Of a stretch of 46,397 bases of DNA, positions 2,276 to 41,181 are shown piece after piece. Origin of the DNA: a virus; the IMG/VR virus record IMGVR_UViG_3300026089_000013, positions 1-46,397 of that record, one strand, 5' to 3'. The stretch's first letter is position 1. Each line of letters begins with the position of its first letter. The position numbers and the translations under genes are program-made. The notes under the pieces were generated by a model, which made no database searches, was not told the origin of the DNA, and saw nothing but the letters and a program-made list of their open reading frames with translations.

Positions 2276-2704
2276 CTACGGCAACAGGATGTGTCCGCCG
2301 CTCGGCCGAATGTTGACCGTCGCCTCGAGGCCGCCGTCCACCGGAGCCGTCGGTGCGATATTGGTGACGAATCCGGAGAACTGCCATGTGGCGCCATCCG
2401 GGAACGTCAGAAGATAGAGATCCTTGGATCCGTCGTGCCACGCCTTGACGAGGCCGGTCAACGAATCGTGGGTGCTCTCGCCGCTCGGCAAGAAGCCCAT
2501 CGTCATGGACAACTCGCCCTTTCGCCGAACGCCGACGACGTAGCTGTCATCGCTGGAGTTCTGCGAAGTCGTCTCGATCGTGTTGCGGGTAAGCGTTGGC
2601 GGCGTGATGTCGCGGAGCTCGGCAATTTCCGTACCGTTCCGCGAGATGAGAGTGCCATGTGCGGATATGGCATTGCTCTCGAGACCTGTGGTAACACTAG
2701 GCAT
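2276..2704 (-). CDS. Major tail tube protein
   Basis: The 142-residue protein opens with MPSVTTGLESNAISAHGTLI and has the beta-rich pattern of the lambda gpV/TTP fold: 'IAELRDITPPTLTRNTIETT', then 'DSLTGLVKAWHDGSKDLYLLTFPDGATWQFSGFV'. It ends in a 'GLEATVNIRPSGGHILLP' strand, similar to 'ATVTLRPSG' endings of siphoviral tube subunits. It would polymerise into the non-contractile tail tube. The start overlaps the end of the glycosyltransferase gene by 8 nt, so the two are translated from one message. Confidence 0.85.
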   Translation of the reverse strand: MPSVTTGLESNAISAHGTLISRNGTEIAELRDITPPTLTRNTIETTSQNSSDDSYVVGVRRKGELSMTMGFLPSGESTHDSLTGLVKAWHDGSKDLYLLTFPDGATWQFSGFVTNIAPTAPVDGGLEATVNIRPSGGHILLP

Positions 2705-3890
2705 CTGTCCCTCCTACGACCTGCAAATCAGGCAGGTGTGAGTCCTCCGAGGAGTAAGCAATCGCTAGCTCGGCTTCGATTTGTGACGCGATCTTCCACC
2801 AACGGAACCGTTCTTGATTGACAAGAGCAAGGCCTCGTGCCCCATACTCCTGTCGTAGATCTTGAAGACGATAGAGCCGATCCAAAGCAGAAATACAGCG
2901 ATACTGATCCGCAATGCCGCCAATCGGATTTGCGTGACCAGGAGTGGCGATAGTGGTTGGGCAGCTGATCTTCCAGGCTGCGTCTTCGGTCCATTCCCCA
3001 AGAGCAGCCCAGTCAGGAACAATCTGTGGAATGCCACAGGCCATCCCTTCCATCGTCGTCAGACCCCACCCTTCACCCTGAGTGGTGGTCATTTGAACAT
3101 CGAAAGCCTGATATGTGGCAACGAGCTCTGGTATCGGTACGCCTTTCCAGACCTCGGGTAAGGCCAGGAATAGACGTCGCTCGATGCCGTAATATTTCAT
3201 CAAGCGGACGCAATCGTATCCGTTCTCACCAGTTGGTCCGATGTGGAGAAACAGATACGCGTTCTCGATGTTGTGGCTCTTGACCCACATGCAGAAATAG
3301 CGGATCAAAAGATCGAATCGCTTGCGAGGTTGGTTGCGATTGACACAGCCAACGATAAAGCCATCGACCATCTCTTGTGGCAGACCAAGAAATTGTCGAG
3401 CCGCTTGTTGAAAGCCAGGAACGAAAATCGTTGTATCGACGCCGAGCGGAATGACCGTTGACGGCTTTTTCAGGCCACCCTTGATCGCTTCATTCCTGCC
3501 GAAGTGCGTCCAGAAGATGACTCGATCCAAGGTGTTGAGCTGATCACCAGCGCAGTTCCGACCATCGACCGGAATAATACCAATGACTGGAATTCCACAT
3601 CCAATCAAAGCATCGTAGGTTGGCACATTCCATGGATCCGTCTGAAGAACGACCACGTCTGGCTTCTCGGCCTCGAGGACGTCCTTTACCCGAGAGGTTC
3701 CAAGAAAATTGCGACATCCAACCACAAAGGCTGGATAAATGCGATACGGATAGTTGTGCGGATCGCCGCGATAATTGACGCCAAGAACACTGACGTCCCA
3801 CGAGTTGTGCAGAAAGGAAAGGACACTGTGAGTGACATTGGAGAAGCCACTATCACAGGCTGCGTCACCGATCCACAAAAGTTTTTTCAT
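2697..3890 (-). CDS. Glycosyltransferase, GT4-like (GT-B fold)
   Basis: The 397-residue protein has the architecture of family 4 retaining glycosyltransferases. An N-terminal nucleotide-fold half (MKKLLWIGDAACDSGFSNVT) is followed by the linker 'STVIPLGVDTTIFVPG' and a C-terminal sugar-nucleotide half. That half has 'VGCVNRNQPRKRFDLLIRYF' and the EX7E region 'EGWGLTTMEGMACGIPQIV'. No signal or membrane segment is seen, so it should act in the cytoplasm. It sits between the tail terminator-like gene (4-nt overlap) and the tail tube (8-nt overlap), inside the structural operon, which suggests a virion protein substrate or late DNA/host-surface modification. The sugar and acceptor are unknown. 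Confidence 0.85.
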   Translation of the reverse strand: MKKLLWIGDAACDSGFSNVTHSVLSFLHNSWDVSVLGVNYRGDPHNYPYRIYPAFVVGCRNFLGTSRVKDVLEAEKPDVVVLQTDPWNVPTYDALIGCGIPVIGIIPVDGRNCAGDQLNTLDRVIFWTHFGRNEAIKGGLKKPSTVIPLGVDTTIFVPGFQQAARQFLGLPQEMVDGFIVGCVNRNQPRKRFDLLIRYFCMWVKSHNIENAYLFLHIGPTGENGYDCVRLMKYYGIERRLFLALPEVWKGVPIPELVATYQAFDVQMTTTQGEGWGLTTMEGMACGIPQIVPDWAALGEWTEDAAWKISCPTTIATPGHANPIGGIADQYRCISALDRLYRLQDLRQEYGARGLALVNQERFRWWKIASQIEAELAIAYSSEDSHLPDLQVVGGTDA

Positions 3891-30916: not shown

Positions 30917-31098
30917 TAGGTTGCATCTCCACTTTTCGTCACGATAATTGTCAAAAGCGTAGCGGTTCCAGTCACAACTGGGACCATGTTGATGTTGATG
31001 CGACCCAGTTTCTCTTCACATTCGTTCAGAAATTCCCTGATCAGGCGGTCGGGCACGCCTTTTTGATCGTCGACCTTGTAAGAATGGACTTCAGCCAT
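30916..31098 (-). CDS. 60-residue hypothetical protein
   Basis: MAEVHSYKVDDQKGVPDRLI.. with 'NECEEKLGRININMVPVVTGTATLLTIIVTK'. The ATG overlaps the exonuclease stop (TGATG). Looks like a small alpha/beta domain; no family recognised. Confidence 0.65.
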   Translation of the reverse strand: MAEVHSYKVDDQKGVPDRLIREFLNECEEKLGRININMVPVVTGTATLLTIIVTKSGDAT

Positions 31099-31868
31099 CA
31101 CGAACTCCTCGTCGGATATTTACCAGCGAGTGCTTTGGTGATGATAGCTTTAACTTCAGCCGAAAAGTTCGACCGAAGTATCCATTGAAGATAGGCTGGA
31201 TCACATTGTTTGAGAGTCGTGCCAGCCTTGGCGCCGAAGTTTATGACGACCTCGCCATTTTTCCAGACGAGCTTGCCTTCATCATCGACGTTGTTGCCTC
31301 CTCCCTTGAAGCACCGCTCGATCTCGGCGATGTTCCGAGGGAGGTCCTTGTGCTGAAGAAGCTGCTCACGTAGGACCTGCATCGATGCTCGTGCATCTGC
31401 AAGGGCGGAGTGGGCATCCAGAAGATCTTTACCAGTATAGTGCTTCAGGGCGGCGGATAGATTCCGTGGACTATACTTCTTGAAGATAAGGAACGAGTCG
31501 ATTATGCATCCTGGAACGAAGTTTATCCCGCAGCGGCGGAACTCCTCGATAAAGAAGCGTATGTCGAACGACTTGCAGTTGTAGCCACAGAAGTCACAAC
31601 CCTGGAAACCCTTGTACAAGACAGGAGCGATGTCTTTAAAGTAGGGCGCATCCTTTACGGTAGCGTCAGTGATGTGATGAACGGCGGAGGCGTTGTCCGG
31701 AATGGGGATATCTGGATCAATCAGAGTCTCCCATTCGTTTAGCTCACCGTCTGGATAGAGCTTTAGCAGACCGATCTGGACGATCCGATCTACGTTTGGA
31801 TAGATTCCAGTTGTCTCTAGGTCCACTGAAATCAGCGGACGTTCTAGAGTGATGAGATCATGGATCAT
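31098..31868 (-). CDS. DnaQ-like 3'-5' exonuclease
   Basis: The 256-residue protein has the DEDDh motifs: ISVDLETTG (D16, E18), 'NCKSFDIRFF' (D102) and 'DAHSALADARA' (H153, D158). This matches a proofreading-type or ribonuclease T/exonuclease X-type enzyme. The C-terminal 70 residues ('GKLVWKNGEVVINFGAKAGTTL', 'YLQWILRSNFSAEVKAII') match the DUF3820-type domain often fused to exonuclease X-like proteins. It could supply proofreading missing from the phage polymerase, whose own exonuclease motifs look degenerate. It is coupled to both neighbours by short overlaps. Confidence 0.9.
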   Translation of the reverse strand: MIHDLITLERPLISVDLETTGIYPNVDRIVQIGLLKLYPDGELNEWETLIDPDIPIPDNASAVHHITDATVKDAPYFKDIAPVLYKGFQGCDFCGYNCKSFDIRFFIEEFRRCGINFVPGCIIDSFLIFKKYSPRNLSAALKHYTGKDLLDAHSALADARASMQVLREQLLQHKDLPRNIAEIERCFKGGGNNVDDEGKLVWKNGEVVINFGAKAGTTLKQCDPAYLQWILRSNFSAEVKAIITKALAGKYPTRSS

Positions 31869-32681: not shown

Positions 32682-32946
32682 GTGTGACTCCAGGCTGCTT
32701 CATCTTCTGCGGATTATTCCAAGCGAAGTCCTGAAATCGTCCAAGCATTTCACGGACACTGTCCAGAAGATAGTCATTGCAACCATCTCCTTCCGCAAGC
32801 TCGATGTAGTGAGAGAGGGCAGCAACGGCAAGTCGATCTCGAGCGCGCAGGATGAAGATTGGCTCGTCGTCTGGGATGGGCTGACCGTTGCTAACCTTAA
32901 CAATCTTTCCATCTTCGATACGCCAACGGTCGCTATTGATGCCCAT
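32671..32946 (-). CDS. Small phage hypothetical (DEPxFxLRARDxLA type)
   Basis: A 91-residue protein with 'DDEPIFILRARDRLAVAALSHYIELAEGDGCNDYLLDSVREML' (in parts). The 'DEP.F.LRa.D.la...l..Y' module is common in phages near replication genes; function unknown. It overlaps the downstream gene by 11 nt. Confidence 0.8.
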   Translation of the reverse strand: MGINSDRWRIEDGKIVKVSNGQPIPDDEPIFILRARDRLAVAALSHYIELAEGDGCNDYLLDSVREMLGRFQDFAWNNPQKMKQPGVTRGK

Positions 32947-33482
32947 TAATAGTTCCTCACTTCCCAGAAGAGTGTGTTGCGGTTCGGGATGTTCCCAACG
33001 TTGACCGAGAAACAGGTAAACTCAATGGTAGCGTCAGGGAAAAGTTCGAAGAAGGCGTCAACATCATCTCGAGATGATGGGTCCATGAATTCATTAATAA
33101 GCACAAGGGTCTCGAGAGAGCTACGATGCCTAAGGATTCCCGCGGCCATCGCCTTTCGCATAGGAAGATGACTTGCTCCAATATATCCTTCGAGGCCACG
33201 GAAAGTTCTACAAATTTCACCCTGGATGGTTTGATGCTCGTCTGGACAGACGTCGTCCATAGTGAAAGTGCGCCCCGCGATTCGCCATATCGTGACAGTC
33301 TCCCAAAAACTGTCGCGTGGTACACGCTCCCATGTCCCTCCGCCAGCACGATGTTCACGGAAACCGAACTCTTTGGCGTCTGAAGCCCATGCCTCATTTG
33401 GATCCCACCATAGACGCGTCGCGTTACCGAGAAGTCCTTGTTTCCACTTCTCGAAGAACTCTCTCTTCGAGCTTATCTTCAT
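32946..33482 (-). CDS. Hypothetical protein in the modification operon
   Basis: A 178-residue protein, start MKISSKREFFEKWKQGLLGN, whose ATG overlaps the thymidylate-synthase-like stop (ATGA). It contains 'FTMDDVCPDEHQTIQGEICRTFRGLEGYIGASHLPMR' and 'TLVLINEFMDPSSRDDVDAFFELFPDATIEFT'. No family is recognised. Its coupling to the synthase suggests a linked role. Confidence 0.65.
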   Translation of the reverse strand: MKISSKREFFEKWKQGLLGNATRLWWDPNEAWASDAKEFGFREHRAGGGTWERVPRDSFWETVTIWRIAGRTFTMDDVCPDEHQTIQGEICRTFRGLEGYIGASHLPMRKAMAAGILRHRSSLETLVLINEFMDPSSRDDVDAFFELFPDATIEFTCFSVNVGNIPNRNTLFWEVRNY

Positions 33483-34579
33483 GCCTTGGCAAGATGTGCG
33501 CTGAGCCGCCGTGACATCCATTCCTGGCCAGCGACGATCCAGTCACAATCTTGGTCGCCCGTCTCCAAGCATTCCAGCGCCTTACGATAATGACTTCCAT
33601 CCGATGATCGTTGGCGGTATGCCTGATGTGCTTGGAGCATCACATACCAGTTAACAGCATAACGATATCGGAAATGAAGTGCTTCATCCATCCCATCCGC
33701 ATCGGCAGCTTTCAAAATCAGCTCGATGTTGCGGTCCACCTCTTTGATCGTGCCTTGAATGGGATAGACCCGAAGTCGTGGTGTCTCGATGTACTTCTTG
33801 CCAATCGTACTGGAATCAGTCACATCAACTTTAGATCCCTCTTGATATGGCTGATGGATGAAACCACTGTATTCCATCATCTCGGCAAGACTGATGACGC
33901 CCTTCAAGATATCAGCGTATGCGTGCCAGTTCGTACTCACTTGATACATACGGCCCACTGGACATTCAATCCAATTTGCCATGTATTCGAGGAGCATCGA
34001 GAAATGGACTGCGTTCGCTCCGTAGGCACCCCAGATGATGTCATTGGAACGGCAGAAGATTGTCAGGTCCAAGGACCCATCCAGATTTCTCTGGAAGGTG
34101 GTGATGGTATTACATGGCACATCCTTGAACGGCTTCCCAAGATCTTTCTCCGAGTCCCACATCTGTAGGACACAGCGACGATCATTGGGATCTTTGGTCA
34201 AGCGCTCGGCGATGACTTGGAGTTGGTCCCTCGAAGAGCCAAGGGAGAACCAATCGCGCCATCGCTTCCCGTAAGCACCGTGCAAGATCTTACCGTCGTC
34301 CGAATACTGTGCCATCTGCTTCGCATACTTGATGAGCGAAGCGACATCGTTGCGGCCTGCCAGCATCCACAACGATTCATAGAGGTGGAAGAAGGGGTTG
34401 GCATCCCGCTGAGGCCAGAGCATGACTCGCTCGGATGGCCTGTTGTAGACCGTAGTGACTGGATAGGGCGTCACGTAGACCGGTCCATTGCGACTCTCGC
34501 GATACACAGCTTCCTGTCGCAGTAAGCGCAAGGCTCGAGGAAGAGCTTCGTGGACGTTCCTAACCTCAAGAACTTTCAT
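33479..34579 (-). CDS. Thymidylate synthase-family protein (candidate dUMP hydroxymethylase)
   Basis: The 366-residue protein has the ThyA core: 'NRPSERVMLWPQRDANPFFHLYESLWMLAG', 'LHGAYGKRWR', the double Arg 'DRRCVLQMW', catalytic Cys156 in 'DVPCN', and 'SLDLTIFCRSNDIIWGAYGANAVHFSML'. Asn189 in GANA aligns with the Asn that selects dUMP in thymidylate synthases; dCMP hydroxymethylases have Asp there. The usual 'RSxDxxLGxPFN' is changed to RSNDIIWGAYGAN, a variant seen in phages. It could make dTMP or 5-hydroxymethyl-dUMP. Neighbouring hypermodification-type genes favour the second. Overlaps 4 nt with both neighbours. Confidence 0.85.
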   Translation of the reverse strand: MKVLEVRNVHEALPRALRLLRQEAVYRESRNGPVYVTPYPVTTVYNRPSERVMLWPQRDANPFFHLYESLWMLAGRNDVASLIKYAKQMAQYSDDGKILHGAYGKRWRDWFSLGSSRDQLQVIAERLTKDPNDRRCVLQMWDSEKDLGKPFKDVPCNTITTFQRNLDGSLDLTIFCRSNDIIWGAYGANAVHFSMLLEYMANWIECPVGRMYQVSTNWHAYADILKGVISLAEMMEYSGFIHQPYQEGSKVDVTDSSTIGKKYIETPRLRVYPIQGTIKEVDRNIELILKAADADGMDEALHFRYRYAVNWYVMLQAHQAYRQRSSDGSHYRKALECLETGDQDCDWIVAGQEWMSRRLSAHLAKA

Positions 34580-35424
34580 CGTCTCCTCAAGTCTGGAGTC
34601 CCCGGCTTGTAGCCGTTGTCGGATGCTGTCAGTTTGATGTGGTTAGGGATTCCCTCGCGCTTCCATGCCTCGAGCCACGCGATGTTGACATCTTTTCTTT
34701 TCGCCATGACGCCAACCTGCGAGTCACTTTCTTTTTCGACCACTTTGACGTATGATGGAAAGAGAGTACGGAGCTGCTCGGCTGCGGTCGCTTGGAGGTC
34801 TGCAGTTCGATACAGTGAGCATCCACCCTTTGCACCACTGCCTCGTTGACTCCAACAATAGTGGTATGCCACGCGATTTGGATAACCCATACAGAGAAGT
34901 GAAAGCGTAACGTAGAAATCTTCCATGACGGGGAGGACATCGAATCGGAGACCGAGATTACGATAGACCTGTGCATCGAAGAAGTGAGCATTGTTGACCC
35001 GAATGCAATCGGCGGATTGAAGCTCGATGTTCTGATTGCCCTGTCGTGCTGAAATACCGCCGTGCATGAAGCCCGAGTCAAGCTGGTCACTAATCCATTG
35101 GAACATTGGATCGATATCAGTAACTCGCTCCAAGCAGCCCGCTCCTCCAAGCGTAGGGATGGGTCGGTAGGAAAAATACATGTCGTCGTCGAGCATGACG
35201 ACACCGCGGGTTGGACTGTTCTCCAGAATGAACTGACGAGTCGGGCCAATCCCGTCGTGCGGGCATTCCATCACCTCGGAATTGGCGTAGTTCTTGTAGT
35301 GGAAGGCTTCTTTGGATGGACAAACCACGATGGGCTTGCGAGATGAAAACTTCTTCATCTCATTGATCGTGATATGTTCCATTGAACTGCGTCCCCGAGT
35401 TGGGATGAACACAGTTAGATCCAT
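34576..35424 (-). CDS. Glycosyltransferase, TET-associated (TAGT)-like
   Basis: The 282-residue protein has a GT-A layout: 'LTVFIPTRGRSSMEHITINEM', 'KPIVVCPSKEAFHYKNYANSEVM', 'GIGPTRQFILENSPTRGVVMLDDDMYFSYR' (nucleotide-sugar-binding DDD at 79-81). This is followed by a region that checks an acceptor ('SADCIRVNNAHFFDAQVYRNLGLRFDVLPVMEDFYVTLSLLCMG'). The pattern matches the TAGT family that glycosylates oxidised/hydroxymethylated pyrimidines in phage DNA. It overlaps the thymidylate-synthase gene by 4 nt and lies 11 nt after a second, divergent DDD glycosyltransferase. Confidence 0.7.
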   Translation of the reverse strand: MDLTVFIPTRGRSSMEHITINEMKKFSSRKPIVVCPSKEAFHYKNYANSEVMECPHDGIGPTRQFILENSPTRGVVMLDDDMYFSYRPIPTLGGAGCLERVTDIDPMFQWISDQLDSGFMHGGISARQGNQNIELQSADCIRVNNAHFFDAQVYRNLGLRFDVLPVMEDFYVTLSLLCMGYPNRVAYHYCWSQRGSGAKGGCSLYRTADLQATAAEQLRTLFPSYVKVVEKESDSQVGVMAKRKDVNIAWLEAWKREGIPNHIKLTASDNGYKPGTPDLRRR

Positions 35425-35435
35425 TATGATAACCT

Positions 35436-36176
35436 CTATCGCTTCATCTTCCAGTTCGGTATATCTATTCCGTTGACTTTTCTGGTTCCTTCACAACTGA
35501 CGTATCGGGAGAACCGTTGGAGGACGATGTCGCGGGTTCGATCAAAGTCTTCTTGTCGTATCGTTCTGGAGCTAGAATCCGCAGAGGTATCAGCAGACCC
35601 TTTCTTATCAAATCCGATAAACTTGACCCGTCCGACGGCACCGTCGAGTTCGCGGTGAGCGCATGTTCGATATACATCTTCCGCTCGTACAAGTCGTTCG
35701 TCGATGAAACGCGAGGGGTCTTCGGCGCTGATTCCGATGTTTCCTCCGCCATGGATTAGCCCCCAAGTTCTGGCGTAGCCATCACCGAGCCAATCTCTTC
35801 GGGAGGTATTGCAGAAGCCCGCATGAGTGGTCTTGGTGACATCTAAGCATTCACGAGCGACACGAATTGCGATGGGTAAATCGATAAAGCCGTCCATCCC
35901 AACAAAGGTCTTCGGTAAGAGGTCGTCATCCATCTTGAAGAAATAGGGGAATCCAGCCTTCGCTGCGGCACGATAGCACGCCGCACACTGAGGACCGTTT
36001 CCACGACCTCCCTCGACTACGGTAATATTACGGATAGCATGATAGAACTGCTCGTGTATGCCTACGAACTCAGGGTCTGCGACGATAATCACCTCGAATG
36101 GAGCAGTCTGGTAGCTCATCAAGCTCTTCAGCGGAGGCTTGCGACGGGACGGAATGCAGATAACCGTATCAAGCAT
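35436..36176 (-). CDS. Second DDD-motif glycosyltransferase
   Basis: A 246-residue protein with 'DTVICIPSRRKPPLKSL', 'FEVIIVADPEFVGIHEQFY', 'VVEGGRGNGPQCAACYRAA' and 'FPYFFKMDDDLLPKTFVG' (DDD at 83-85). It is a GT-A-type enzyme related in layout to the TAGT-like neighbour but clearly divergent. Two such enzymes in tandem suggest successive sugar additions or different acceptors. It overlaps the HMUDK-like gene by 8 nt. Substrate unknown. Confidence 0.65.
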   Translation of the reverse strand: MLDTVICIPSRRKPPLKSLMSYQTAPFEVIIVADPEFVGIHEQFYHAIRNITVVEGGRGNGPQCAACYRAAAKAGFPYFFKMDDDLLPKTFVGMDGFIDLPIAIRVARECLDVTKTTHAGFCNTSRRDWLGDGYARTWGLIHGGGNIGISAEDPSRFIDERLVRAEDVYRTCAHRELDGAVGRVKFIGFDKKGSADTSADSSSRTIRQEDFDRTRDIVLQRFSRYVSCEGTRKVNGIDIPNWKMKR

Positions 36177-37032
36177 ACGCTGTCCGAGGAGCTACGAACT
36201 TTCGTTTCATCGACTCACCGCTGCGAGCGCGACAATACTTGTCCCACTCGCACATCCAGTGCTCTACCTCCCTCATTTCCCACGTGTGCCATTTCTGCGG
36301 CCAGTACTGTTCGTCCCGGCTCATGGCGAGAATCTCACGCATCAGGCTGAGCATGGTTCTCTGATCGCTGGGACCAGTGCCAAAGCGACCGACATGCCCA
36401 TCCACAGTCCAGCTGAGTCCTCGAGCACAGCCGGGACCAGCGTTCGCCCATGTGAGTATATCGGGCGCGACTGATAAGAACGGTGTCCAGCGCAGATCAG
36501 AGACGATCTCATAGGCCATGAAACCGCCCAGATAGTTCAGGGTCGTGAGATCCCGCCACGCGGCTTCGAGGGAGGGTTTGGCCTTCCACTTTTCAACCAT
36601 CGGAGGAAGTCGTGGAAAAGCCTCATCGATGCACTTGAGGACACCCTCTAGTTTTGGGTATCCATCATAGCCTTTGATGATGTAGGCGCCGGTGACTATC
36701 GGAGCAACTCCTCGGAGACGGCGTTCAGCTTCTTGGGAATCCCACTTGTCAACCAGCAGATCTACAATGAGCTCCCCGGTCTCGATTCGGTTGAACCATC
36801 GAAAGGCCACGGTCGCACGAGTGGCTGCGAGCTCGTCCAGATGCTTACGGACAGTCTCACGGAACCACCGAGTTGTCTTGTCGTGCTCTCTGTGAACGTG
36901 ACAGAACCGCCACTGACGGAATTGCTTGTCAGTAGTCCATGGAGGTGGCTCACCGGCTTCACGCTTCAGCTTGATATTGTAGCGTTCACGAGCTGTCTCG
37001 AAGAAGCCGGTGGCGTATTTAAGTTCCAGCAC
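36169..37032 (-). CDS. 5-hmdU DNA kinase helical domain / aGPT-PPlase-like protein
   Basis: A 287-residue protein. 'ERYNIKLKREAGEPPPWTTDKQFRQWRFCHVHREHDKTTRWF' (in parts) is the hallmark of the HMUDK_hel/aGPT-PPlase family ('R..i...r..g...PWT.D.il...rF.nv.Re.Dr.t.w'). 'LGGFMAYEIVSDLRWTP', 'GPGCARGLSW' and C-terminal 'REVEHWMCEWDKYCRAR' fit the same family. Members phosphorylate or pyrophosphorylate 5-hydroxymethyluracil in DNA as the entry step of thymine hypermodification. No P-loop is seen here. It is embedded in an overlapping operon with nucleotide and glycosyl enzymes. Confidence 0.7.
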   Translation of the reverse strand: MLELKYATGFFETARERYNIKLKREAGEPPPWTTDKQFRQWRFCHVHREHDKTTRWFRETVRKHLDELAATRATVAFRWFNRIETGELIVDLLVDKWDSQEAERRLRGVAPIVTGAYIIKGYDGYPKLEGVLKCIDEAFPRLPPMVEKWKAKPSLEAAWRDLTTLNYLGGFMAYEIVSDLRWTPFLSVAPDILTWANAGPGCARGLSWTVDGHVGRFGTGPSDQRTMLSLMREILAMSRDEQYWPQKWHTWEMREVEHWMCEWDKYCRARSGESMKRKFVAPRTAYA

Positions 37033-37633
37033 CCATCACCTCAGCATACATTCGATAGTGAACAAGGAAGAGTTCTTCGGCTGACTTCCAGGACCACGGA
37101 GACCACGGCCCGATTAGATCGATTTCTGATTGGCTGAGATTGGGATAGTCAGGATGGTCAATGACAAATCCAGGACCGAACCCTTTCCTTCCCTCGAATA
37201 GGACTAGGATGCGGTCTGCGTAGCTAACGAATTCGTGTTGGTCAACAGGGCAGCCGAACTTTCTGTAGATCTTGGCTTGTATGATATCTTCAAGAATACG
37301 ATAATTCTCGAAGATCTTGGTCTGCTTCAGCCACTTAGTGACGTCACCGACATACGCTTCTGCGGCGTCATGTAGAAGAGCCTGACGAATAATACTATGA
37401 TGATTAACGGCAGAGTCTGGGCCTCTAGCAAGAAGCTCAGCAACAATTCGCGCAGCATAGACGGAGTGCTGCGCGACAGAAATCGGTCGCTTGGTGTGAC
37501 CAGCGAAACGATTACAAAGGGCGAGAGCGTGAGCTATGTCTTCAATGCGGATTAAGTCAGGCTCGAGACGGCACACGTCTAGCTCAAGCCCGGAATACGT
37601 CCGGATGAGCGTCTGGGTCGCCGGGCCGGGCAT
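37019..37633 (-). CDS. HD-domain nucleotide phosphohydrolase (YfbR-like)
   Basis: The 204-residue protein has an HD site: 'ISVAQHSVYAARIV' (H56), 'ALLHDAAEAYVGDVTKWLKQ' (H88, D89) and a distal 'SYADRILVLFEGRKGFG'. It resembles 5'-deoxynucleotidases/YfbR-like enzymes that dephosphorylate dNMPs. In phages with modified bases such enzymes remove the normal nucleotide from the pool. It is adjacent to, and overlaps by 14 nt, the HMUDK-like gene, so this role is plausible here but unproven. Confidence 0.8.
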   Translation of the reverse strand: MPGPATQTLIRTYSGLELDVCRLEPDLIRIEDIAHALALCNRFAGHTKRPISVAQHSVYAARIVAELLARGPDSAVNHHSIIRQALLHDAAEAYVGDVTKWLKQTKIFENYRILEDIIQAKIYRKFGCPVDQHEFVSYADRILVLFEGRKGFGPGFVIDHPDYPNLSQSEIDLIGPWSPWSWKSAEELFLVHYRMYAEVMGAGT

Positions 37634-39285: not shown

Positions 39286-41181
39286 CTATTCGTCTCCGCA
39301 TTCACGCCAGTTCTTTCCAATCTTTAGATCCCATAGAATGGGAATTTTCAGCGATGGAAACGTCTGTCGATTGAGGATCTCTCGAACTTTGTCTGCGTGA
39401 TGTGCATCAGGAATATCGCCGTTAACAGAGTCATGAACTGGATAACGAAGCACGAATCCAGTTTCCTTACGATGCCTGCGAAGCTCAACAATTTTTGCCT
39501 TCATGATATCGGCGCCACTGCCTTGAATGCGCCGATTGAGAGCCTTATGAATCTCTACGCCATCGGGGAACCGGCCACGACGACCGAGAATAGTCTTGAT
39601 GTATCCTCGAGTCTTGGCAATCTCCATTGCCTTGTCGTTGACTGGCTTGACCTCAGGAACTAGCTTGTTGTAGAGGCTGTTGATGGCAACCGTGGATTGG
39701 AGCAGAGGATGATTGGAAGTTGCCTGATCTCGTACGAGTTGAAGATACTGCTCCTTGGAAATGAACTCCAGCATCAACGCCATCTTCTTGAGGCCAGCGT
39801 TGTAGAGCTTGGCGAAGTTCAGATCCTTCTGCTGTCGATACTGAAAGTTGGGCTGATATTCCTTGACAAGTCCGTGCATGAACTTGTGAAAGCTCAGCTC
39901 AGGATTCTCTTTGTATGCCTGAATTGTCTTCGGGTTGCCAGCCTCATTCGCGAATAGCCTATACTCAATCTGCATAGCATCAGCAGAGAGATAGTCATAT
40001 CCAGGTGTTCCTGGAATGTGAAGCTCGCGAATGATGAACTCATCGCCATACGAAGATAGCTGCTTCGCTACCTTAATCGTCTGCTGGATGTTCGTGCCTT
40101 CTGTCCGCGACAGGCCAGTGCTAGAGAATCGACCGAACCCTGTTCCAGCCTCGCCCTCCTCGAATTCGCCCTCCCGGGCCTCCTTCAACTGATGTAGTGC
40201 ATATCGAAGGATGCCATTGCTGTCCACGTTTCTGCGATATTTCAGGAGATATTTCGAGAGGAGGCTCTTAAGCCGAATGCCTCGCCGGAGTTTCTTAACC
40301 GTGGGATGTTCAATCTGCTTCAGGATGAGATCGGTGAAGCTGGCCTTACCCGTCGCAGTAGTCCCACCGAACGGAATGCCAAGCTTCTGGAACAGAGCGG
40401 TCTTATCATCGGAGGAGCCGAACTCAACTTTCAGTCCAGTCTCCTTATAGATCTCCATGTAGATGTCTTGCATAGCTTGAGTGGCCTGTTTGATCCACAA
40501 CTCAAGCTTCTCAACATCTATTTTCTCACCTTGATACTCCATGTCGGCAGTAGCAAAGATGAGTTCTTCTTCGAGTAGGCGCACACGATCCAGATTCTGT
40601 CGCTGGAGCTCAGGCCACATTACATCCTTGAGCTCACGAATGACAGATGTCTGATACATTGCTCTCGGAGCGGCTTGCGCCGCATCGTACGAGGCCATGC
40701 GCGATTCGTCTAATCGAGGGACTTCGGGAGGATGACCGAGGAAATCTGGAATGAGAAGGTCTAGCTTGAAACGCTGCCGGTGGTCATCAAGGAGGGCTGC
40801 ATAGTGAGCAACGTCTGCAACACGATTTCCCTGTTCTTCTAAGTCTATACCCCAGACGCGGGCCATATGGACTTCGAACTTGGTATTCGTGTTCGTTATT
40901 TTCTTTCCTCGAATTTGCTCCTTGAAGAATCGTTTGACTTGAGCTTCGTCTAGATTTCCACCAGTGAAGCCCCACGGCATGAAGTGAGTCTTGTATCCGT
41001 TAGCTGGGTCGCCATACGTGATAGATGCGCTAATAGGTTTGTCGCCAGCCCACCACCGAAATCCAGTGGTCTCGAAGTTGAGAAAAATTTCATCCACACC
41101 ATCGAGGGAACTCGGTGGAGGCTCTGGCTTCCAGTCGAACTGCCTAGGAGGAGGATCGAGTAGATCGAAGATATTTAGCAT
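39286..41181 (-). CDS. DNA polymerase, family A
   Basis: The 631-residue protein has polymerase motif A 'SADAMQIEYRLFANEAG', motif B 'RQQKDLNFAKLYNAG' and motif C 'VLRYPVHDSVNGDI' (HDS in place of HDE). The N-terminal exonuclease-type domain is present but key acids differ: exo I reads FLNFETTG (Asn35 instead of Asp, Glu37 kept) and exo II 'NTKFEVH' (Glu103 instead of Asp). Proofreading may be weak or lost; the separate DnaQ-like exonuclease could compensate. It would replicate the phage genome, with modified or unmodified nucleotides. It is followed 9 nt later by the next gene. Confidence 0.92.
   Translation of the reverse strand: MLNIFDLLDPPPRQFDWKPEPPPSSLDGVDEIFLNFETTGFRWWAGDKPISASITYGDPANGYKTHFMPWGFTGGNLDEAQVKRFFKEQIRGKKITNTNTKFEVHMARVWGIDLEEQGNRVADVAHYAALLDDHRQRFKLDLLIPDFLGHPPEVPRLDESRMASYDAAQAAPRAMYQTSVIRELKDVMWPELQRQNLDRVRLLEEELIFATADMEYQGEKIDVEKLELWIKQATQAMQDIYMEIYKETGLKVEFGSSDDKTALFQKLGIPFGGTTATGKASFTDLILKQIEHPTVKKLRRGIRLKSLLSKYLLKYRRNVDSNGILRYALHQLKEAREGEFEEGEAGTGFGRFSSTGLSRTEGTNIQQTIKVAKQLSSYGDEFIIRELHIPGTPGYDYLSADAMQIEYRLFANEAGNPKTIQAYKENPELSFHKFMHGLVKEYQPNFQYRQQKDLNFAKLYNAGLKKMALMLEFISKEQYLQLVRDQATSNHPLLQSTVAINSLYNKLVPEVKPVNDKAMEIAKTRGYIKTILGRRGRFPDGVEIHKALNRRIQGSGADIMKAKIVELRRHRKETGFVLRYPVHDSVNGDIPDAHHADKVREILNRQTFPSLKIPILWDLKIGKNWRECGDE

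Follow-up and report, generated by a model that had tools for sequence, protein, structure and literature searches.

A probable phage operon for thymine hypermodification with glycosylation as the predicted second step and a PF18723 protein as its putative constant helper

The locus at 33479-37633 (minus strand) of the virus record IMGVR_UViG_3300026089_000013, analysed here over a stretch of 46,397 nucleotides (the window), is probably an operon for thymine hypermodification, with glycosylation as the second step and the PF18723 protein HEL as a constant helper at the DNA level. According to the best reading of the sequences, 5hmdUMP would be made and polymerised, and the 5hmU in DNA would then be glycosylated, not phosphorylated. 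The combination of a TS homologue, HEL, and a TAGT glycosyltransferase without a kinase is a recurrent class, which includes the cultured phage LuckyBarnes, and the HEL tree shows at least eight exchanges between kinase and TAGT.

Five consecutive ORFs were confirmed in the locus. In coordinate order, they encode the TS homologue, two glycosyltransferases (GTa and GTb), HEL, and an HD-domain 5'-deoxynucleotidase, and neighbouring ORFs overlap by 4, 8, and 14 nt at the first, third, and fourth junctions and are 11 nt apart at the second. The original prediction of adjacent minus-strand genes, overlapping or at most 12 nt apart, was thus borne out. The same gene families were found together in dozens of independent contigs, which puts the arrangement far outside what chance would produce. 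The HMM searches that the prediction had suggested matched PF00303, PF20691 (GTa), PF18723, and the HD families, but left GTb without a family match; the suggested structure prediction gave a GT-A (GT2-like) fold for GTb and an all-helical one for HEL. A family A DNA polymerase gene (39286..41181, minus strand; PF00476, E 4e-30) has the same neighbourhood in relatives. The conserved 191-aa protein encoded downstream of TS (32946..33521, minus strand) had no match in the Pfam search; its relatives (41-55%) sit near the same place in loci L003, L006, and L014. A DnaQ-like DNA polymerase exonuclease subunit (31098..31868, minus strand; phrog_192, E 9e-44) has relatives in L003, L005, and L008-L013. 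Promoter and terminator scans gave signals no higher than in shuffled sequence.

The TS homologue (33479..34579, minus strand; 366 aa) belongs to the predicted family (PF00303, E 6e-21; phrog_5131, E 5e-108). Along its whole length, it shares 45-46% identity with the dUMP hydroxymethylase-type TS of M6/YuA-like phages, and M6/YuA phage DNA carries 5-NedU, derived from 5hmU (PMC6449724, PMC11946847). The closest solved structure was that of the MilA CMP 5-hydroxymethylase, which ranked above true TS. The position of pyrimidine specificity is Asn in the window (Asn189), L003, M6, PaMx11, LuckyBarnes, and the TS of the methyltransferase group, while a T-even dCMP hydroxymethylase and the TS homologues of Microbacterium phages are Asp-type; Asp179 is the determinant for dCMP in dCMP hydroxymethylase (PMC6400193). 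With its TS fold, catalytic Cys156, uracil-type Asn, and kinship to pyrimidine hydroxymethylases, the protein is predicted to be a dUMP 5-hydroxymethylase. A cytosine route, in which it would make 5hmdCMP and the glycosyltransferases would decorate 5hmC in the T-even fashion, was disfavoured because the specificity residue is Asn, not Asp, and is unlikely also in view of the 45% TS identity to the M6 group. In favour of cytosine, the TAGTs with established substrates modify bases derived from 5hmC, the T2/T6 enzymes (PF20691) acting on glucosylated 5hmC DNA (PMC13216743, PMC13390438), and a dCMP-hydroxymethylase was predicted in the LuckyBarnes paper, whose authors interpreted the operon as one of cytosine modification (PMC6588365). 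The T-even system likewise unites a pyrimidine hydroxymethylase and a DNA glycosyltransferase (PF20691 in T2/T6), whereas the window has a uracil-type TS, HEL, and no T-even gene order. In the preferred uracil route, the HD nucleotidase (37019..37633, minus strand; 204 aa) probably clears competing dTMP/dNMP. Its predicted assignment was confirmed by PF13023 and PF12917 and by phrog_318 (deoxyribonucleoside 5'-monophosphate phosphatase, E 5e-40), and its gene adjoins TS in M6 and PaMx11 too.

Two TAGT-like GT-A enzymes had been expected, which proved correct for GTa but not for GTb, while the DDD motifs were found at the predicted residues of both (79-81 and 83-85, respectively). GTa (34576..35424, minus strand; 282 aa) matched the TAGT family PF20691 in the hmmscan of the protein (E 1.6e-9; score 38.4 bits, cut-off 27.5), a match missed by the six-frame PF20691 search, and phrog_842 (beta-glucosyl-HMC-alpha-glucosyltransferase, E 1e-32); it is 31.8% identical to a LuckyBarnes glycosyltransferase over the full length. 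GTb (35436..36176, minus strand; 246 aa) had no significant match in Pfam, including PF20691, or in PHROG, and none among 50,697 phage records; its relatives were found in L009-L014 (39-51% identity). The AlphaFold model of GTb (pLDDT 91.8) has a GT-A (GT2-like) fold, for which Foldseek retrieved the GT2 enzymes WrtF, TarS, TarP, and SpsA (E about 4e-6 to 1e-4, prob 1.00). A pair of TAGTs was therefore rejected, and GTb is, as modelled, a separate GT-A family that is also present in other HEL loci. Further glycosyltransferases are encoded elsewhere on the phage, e.g., at 2697-3890 (phrog_2170). Such enzymes would agree with the idea that GTa and GTb target host surface glycans or virion proteins, the TS and HD proteins merely supplying nucleotides for replication. 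This is most improbable, since the glycosyltransferase genes form an overlapping gene order with TS and HEL, TAGT recurs within such clusters of distantly related phages, and GTa is a member of a DNA-glycosyltransferase family.

The 5hmdU DNA kinase (PF18748, M6 gp54, PaMx11 gp49) was absent from the window and from a second, identical record of 68.7 kb in searches with Pfam, single proteins, a 17-row alignment, and six-frame HMMs, all with positive controls. The alignment and local HMMs were included because PF18748 alone is insensitive, overlooking the kinases of L009 and L014. The whole 68.7 kb record contained no HMUDK-type P-loop and no match to the KIN model. The amino acid:DNA transferase ADDT (PF18724) was likewise not found in either record, and neither gene was found in the searched records of other TAGT-class and methyltransferase-class loci; in the control records, the kinase was detected in 5/5 and ADDT in 4/5. 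Since both are absent here, phosphorylation is probably not the step that opens the pathway. It is very unlikely that the complete kinase pathway is at work with a kinase diverged beyond recognition, the glycosyltransferases decorating a side chain installed by HEL as an amino-acid/pyrophosphate transferase (the older 'pyrophosphorylase' prediction). HEL may share the ADDT fold, both were annotated as aGPT-PPlase clades, and relatives of GTb are present in kinase/ADDT loci; against this stand the failure to find a kinase-type P-loop, KIN-model match, or ADDT in the 68.7 kb record and the one-in, one-out pattern of kinase and TAGT. The TET/JBP route was rejected as well, no oxygenase having been found: a PF12851 search of 31 records, including the window and its twin, gave just one sub-threshold fragment, elsewhere, in line with the original observation that no TET/JBP gene is visible.

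Replacement of the kinase by TAGT was evaluated in 69 HEL loci, each with at least 2.5 kb on both sides of HEL. TS was nearly constant across them, and HEL was accompanied by the kinase only in 39, TAGT only in 19, both in 1, and neither in 10 (Fisher p 7e-9). ADDT occurred in 31/40 kinase loci and 0/29 other loci, hence never in TAGT-only loci; the one locus with both companions (L088) has the full kinase/ADDT/PLP/radical-SAM set plus TAGT. In nine of the ten loci with neither, the gene immediately upstream of HEL encodes a SAM methyltransferase, and in the remaining one (L090), an FkbM-type methyltransferase gene lies directly downstream. On the HEL tree, the TAGT label changes 11 times, at least 8 of these changes being forced by well-supported branches. 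In eight independent pairs differing in the kinase, TAGT shifted the opposite way in 7.6/8 and never the same way (p 0.008). A DNA polymerase cluster lies within 5.5 kb of HEL in 43/69 loci. Kinase and TAGT thus substitute repeatedly around HEL, which therefore is not a kinase-specific part.

HEL (36169..37032, minus strand; 287 aa, GTG start) matched the full-length profile of PF18723 (HMUDK_hel, aGPT-PPlase clade 1) at positions 6-278 of 281 (E 4e-35; score 122 bits, cut-off 25) and is 45-47% identical to proteins of PaMx11-group phages. It carries the anticipated signature PWTxD..RFC.VHREHD (PWTTD from residue 31, RFCHVHREHD from residue 42), and 14 columns are invariant over all companion classes. 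The HMUDK/aGPT-PPlase-like label holds for this 'helical' family but not for the P-loop kinase of the PF18748/PaMx11 gp49 type: HEL as the kinase was rejected, since in M6 the P-loop kinase (PF18748) is gp54 and the PF18723 protein is gp55, and HEL stays where the kinase is absent. The all-helical AlphaFold model (pLDDT 95.6) gave recurrent, non-significant fold matches to the HhH-GPD DNA glycosylases MjOGG, mOGG1, AGOG, and AlkA (best E 0.5, prob 0.82, TM 0.37/0.47); this weak likeness suggests a base-presenting module common to alternative second-step enzymes. The profile similarity of HEL to ADDT was also weak (prob 20%, E 1e-3), and a sequence search of the PDB gave no match. Since a search for fusions of HEL to partner enzymes found none, the putative physical partnership is derived from gene neighbourhood only. 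HEL may not be 5hmU-specific, as Microbacterium phages pair HEL and TAGT with an Asp-type (cytosine) TS homologue. It may also function independently, given that PF18723 proteins are encoded by bacteria and archaea whose genomes lack TS, kinase, and TAGT.

These cellular proteins would also suit a function of HEL unrelated to the second step, in 5hmU replication or protection (e.g., defence against the host's uracil/5hmU glycosylases, or clearance of T/U left unmodified), with the glycosyltransferases acting alone on 5hmU. HEL accompanies TS in nearly all loci whichever the companion, adjoining it in some, and a glycosylase-like fold would be appropriate for repair or shielding. This explanation is doubtful but deserves serious consideration; it is opposed by the direct neighbour of HEL, which is the kinase in 21/37 kinase loci, TAGT in 10/19 TAGT loci, and a methyltransferase in 10/10 of the remaining ones, and by Pfam naming PF18723 a domain of 5hmdU DNA kinase. 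In the other 9/19 TAGT loci, TAGT stands apart from HEL, as in the window, where GTb lies between them. A tentative proposal, to which we give somewhat less than an even chance, is that HEL is a general adaptor presenting 5hmU to an interchangeable kinase, TAGT or other glycosyltransferase, or methyltransferase around a constant TS-HEL core, the window locus belonging to a widespread, chemically uncharacterised glycosylated-5hmU class ('base J-like', without TET/JBP).

In the proposed glycosylation pathway, judged from homology, the TS homologue would convert dUMP to 5-hydroxymethyl-dUMP, while the HD nucleotidase would remove competing dNMP, e.g., dTMP. The nearby family A polymerase would build 5hmdUTP into phage DNA, where GTa would place a sugar on the 5-hydroxymethyl of 5hmU and GTb may add a second or different sugar. 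HEL, probably a module of the HhH-glycosylase type that flips bases or selects sites, would pass 5hmU to the second-step enzyme, i.e., a P-loop kinase in the M6/PaMx11-type group, TAGT here, and a SAM methyltransferase in the third group. The earlier idea of an unusual route to glycosylated thymine derivatives is retained at the sequence level as a TS-route hypermodification locus with a TAGT-type enzyme and without TET/JBP, but the TAGT pair is not, and the combination is not unique. To our knowledge, neither a kinase-TAGT swap nor TS-route glycosylation of 5hmU by TAGT has been reported.

If this reading is true, 5hmU-based phage DNA chemistry would be modular, with a shared TS and HEL core feeding alternative enzymes, and the gene beside HEL would reveal the type of hypermodification. 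It would explain what PF18723 proteins do and provide new DNA-decorating enzymes, with a bearing on the escape of such DNA from restriction, CRISPR, and defences of the glycosylase type. In phages, the cultured LuckyBarnes among them, 5hmU DNA would be expected in glycosylated and methylated forms; the swap is directly testable, since it recurs in many viruses, at least one of which is grown in the laboratory. Part of the 'solitary TAGT' phages, 288/753 genomes (PMC13216743), might also be accounted for.

Compared with the thymidine hypermodification systems of M6/YuA and PaMx11, the window shares TS (42-46%), HEL (32-47%), and the HD nucleotidase, likewise clustered near a family A polymerase. 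Those pathways comprise the dUMP hydroxymethylase, the P-loop 5hmdU DNA kinase, ADDT, and later PLP/radical SAM or FAD enzymes, whereas the window has two glycosyltransferases instead. With the TET/JBP-TAGT systems and trypanosome base J, it has a TAGT-family transferase in common, and the expected sugar-on-5hmU product would be base J-like, but no oxygenase was found here, and the hydroxymethyl group would come from the TS homologue at the nucleotide level. Pelagiphages carry TS, aG/PT-PPlase1, a 5'-deoxynucleotidase, and a putative beta-glucosyl-HMC-alpha-glucosyltransferase in one region near the DNA polymerase, four functions shared with the window locus; in the portion of that report concerning them, these are co-located hypermodification genes, and neither kinase replacement nor 5hmU glycosylation is proposed (PMC9599517). 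The Brevibacterium phage LuckyBarnes (NC_047851), which is grown on Brevibacterium iodinum and in which no kinase or ADDT was found, has a contiguous TS-GT-GT-HEL order like that of the window; both of its glycosyltransferases are TAGT-type, whereas the window has one TAGT and GTb, and the two HEL proteins are just 25% identical.

All five minus-strand ORFs of the original prediction were present at 33479-37633 and closely spaced (overlaps of 4, 8, and 14 nt and one 11-nt gap). Pfam upheld the assignments to a thymidylate synthase homologue (TS, PF00303), an HMUDK-like protein (HEL, PF18723 HMUDK_hel), and an HD nucleotidase (PF13023/PF12917); of the two enzymes proposed as TAGT-like, GTa belonged to PF20691, while GTb had no Pfam family match. 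PHROGs agreed with Pfam for TS (phrog_5131 thymidylate synthase, E 5e-108), GTa (phrog_842 beta-glucosyl-HMC-alpha-glucosyltransferase, E 1e-32), and the HD protein (phrog_318 deoxyribonucleoside monophosphatase, E 5e-40). A search found no TET/JBP gene, as originally noted. The locus is a predicted thymine hypermodification system of phages, a genuine and recurring variant whose second step is likely glycosylation; the sequence evidence argues strongly for the pathway class, moderately for 5hmU glycosylation, and is suggestive of HEL as a shared adaptor.

Genes for portal, terminase, head protease, primase-helicase, and family A polymerase mark the window as a tailed phage, and the 68.7 kb record IMGVR_UViG_3300005459_000006 contains the 46.4 kb at 100% identity, apart from the final few bases. 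The top NCBIfam match of the polymerase (39286-41181) was the aminoadenine-incorporating DpoZ, with 194 bits, far under the cut-off of 500. Relatives that carry the kinase and relatives that lack it both conserve a 191-aa protein without a known family (32946-33521) downstream of TS. An additional glycosyltransferase (2697-3890, phrog_2170) is located close to the virion genes, and in the 68.7 kb record, a glycosyltransferase-like gene comes after a methyltransferase-like one (L182:1415-2751, judged by eye).

An alignment scan gathered 80 HEL loci, which were counted if at least 2.5 kb was available on each side, with duplicate fetches of one record dropped. The 5hmdU DNA kinase alone was found in 39 loci, TAGT alone in 19, both in one, and neither in 10 (Fisher p 7e-9); the sample comprises mainly the best relatives of the window HEL, with near-identical contigs partly remaining (64 distinct HEL sequences in 69), so these frequencies are not population estimates. 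TS was present in 37/39 kinase-only, 18/19 TAGT-only, and 10/10 neither loci, and the amino acid:DNA transferase (ADDT) in 31/40 kinase loci vs. 0/29 remaining loci. To account for relatedness, an HEL tree was built, on which the TAGT label required 11 changes, at least eight of them forced by starred branches. Across eight independent pairs differing in kinase, TAGT differed in the opposite direction in 7.6 and never in the same direction (p 0.008). The replacement is directly visible among the nearest relatives of the window, L003 (TAGT) and L014/L006 (kinase), in which HEL is 56-59% identical, TS about 48-56%, and the flanking genes are related. Only L088 (3113-11021) combined the full ADDT/PLP/radical-SAM/kinase set with TAGT beside HEL. 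Radical SAM/SPASM proteins, possibly providing additional base or sugar chemistry, occurred in TAGT and kinase loci alike (L032:5397-6440, Pfam-checked; L036:1018-1995; L058:10069-11025).

M6, PaMx11, phage Simon, and numerous metagenomic relatives encode a P-loop kinase immediately ahead of HEL or close to it; in M6, Pfam identified gp54 as the 5-hmdU DNA kinase (PF18748), gp55 as HMUDK_hel, and gp51 as ADDT. Searches for kinase and ADDT were negative for the window, the 68.7 kb record, the L003/L004 records, and the Brevibacterium phage LuckyBarnes, and alignment searches (17 and 10 rows, respectively) were likewise negative for the TAGT-class and methyltransferase-class records searched. 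The controls were positive in 5/5 records for kinase and 4/5 for ADDT, the negative one being L009, whose near relative L013 has ADDT. No HMUDK-like P-loop or kinase-model match emerged when the full 68.7 kb was translated in six frames.

The closest phage relatives of the window TS were those of M6/YuA-like Pseudomonas and Bordetella phages (45-46% full-length), several annotated as deoxyuridylate hydroxymethyltransferase; M6 DNA contains 5hmU-derived 5-NedU (PMC6449724, PMC11946847). Among solved structures, MilA CMP 5-hydroxymethylase was nearest, above true TS. The pyrimidine-specificity residue was located from the sequence downstream of it, as the automatic alignment was shifted by one residue there (a one-residue gap just after). 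It is Asn in the window, M6, PaMx11, L003, LuckyBarnes, and methyltransferase-class phages, vs. Asp-type in a T-even dCMP hydroxymethylase; in the T4 enzyme, Asp179 is known to determine dCMP specificity (PMC6400193). From these relatives and the Asn, the predicted product is 5hmdUMP rather than 5hmdCMP. Microbacterium phages Quartz and Nebulous (L107, L108) encode HEL (PF18723) and TAGT but an Asp-type TS homologue, and therefore probably act on cytosine, so that HEL may also serve 5hmC systems.

Co-occurrence of TS, HEL-type, and glycosyltransferase genes has already been described. No report was found of an unchanging TS-HEL core at which kinase, TAGT, and methyltransferase replace one another, or of the uracil assignment, in a search that lay outside the main enzymology papers, and the novelty of both is provisional. 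The class includes at least one cultured phage, which makes its chemistry directly testable.

In T2/T6, TAGT attaches a second glucose to 5hmC that already carries one (PMC13216743, PMC13390438); for cytosine, TAGT action on modified bases in DNA is thus established, and we infer it for 5hmU. Foldseek of the predicted structure placed GTb among GT2-like GT-A enzymes. GTb relatives are found at kinase/ADDT loci (L009-L014, L033/L034, L089), so GTb probably serves to lengthen or vary the attached group. Five tandem GTb-family genes, possibly for multi-sugar decoration, adjoin kinase, HEL, and TS in L033 (3294-7111; also with ADDT) and L034 (354-4171). A MobA-like nucleotidyltransferase in the L003 cluster (under the Pfam cut-off) and a GFO/IDH/MocA-family dehydrogenase in that of L013 are in keeping with sugar chemistry.

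In 9/10 neither loci, the gene immediately upstream of HEL encodes a class I SAM methyltransferase (PF13489/PF08241); in the remaining one (L090), an FkbM-type methyltransferase follows HEL immediately. Loci with the methyltransferase followed by HEL and TS, without kinase or TAGT (L091, L094-L097, L099, L101-L103; e.g., L099:7144-7983), possibly form a methylated 5hmU class. MAG contigs L115-L117 and L130 encode a GT-B-glycosyltransferase-like protein between HEL and TS, a lead only, since Pfam scores were sub-cut-off or absent. In Hyphomicrobium, a uracil-DNA-glycosylase family gene (L129:7112-7753) lies directly upstream of HEL and TS, and eight phage loci have short proteins of similar appearance close to HEL (cluster c19, by visual inspection).

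Fourteen HEL columns were invariant in 47 sequences of every companion class, so the core function of HEL seems independent of the companion. Its AlphaFold model was all-helical and confident (pLDDT 95.6). Foldseek against PDB gave no significant match; the top sensible non-significant ones were all HhH-GPD DNA glycosylases, namely OGG of M. jannaschii (prob 0.82, TM 0.37/0.47), AGOG, AlkA, and, repeatedly, mouse OGG1. HEL and ADDT profiles aligned weakly in their C-terminal halves, sharing an LC motif. HEL would be a base-flipping, DNA-binding helper, which is the least secure step of the reading. The aGPT-PPlase has been flagged as a predicted defence domain (PMC13092281). Bacterial and archaeal genomes (L137-L179, e.g., L146 Haloferax elongans and L149 alphaproteobacterium MAG) also encode PF18723-family proteins, in most cases with no TS, kinase, or TAGT; these could conceivably be modified-base glycosylases.
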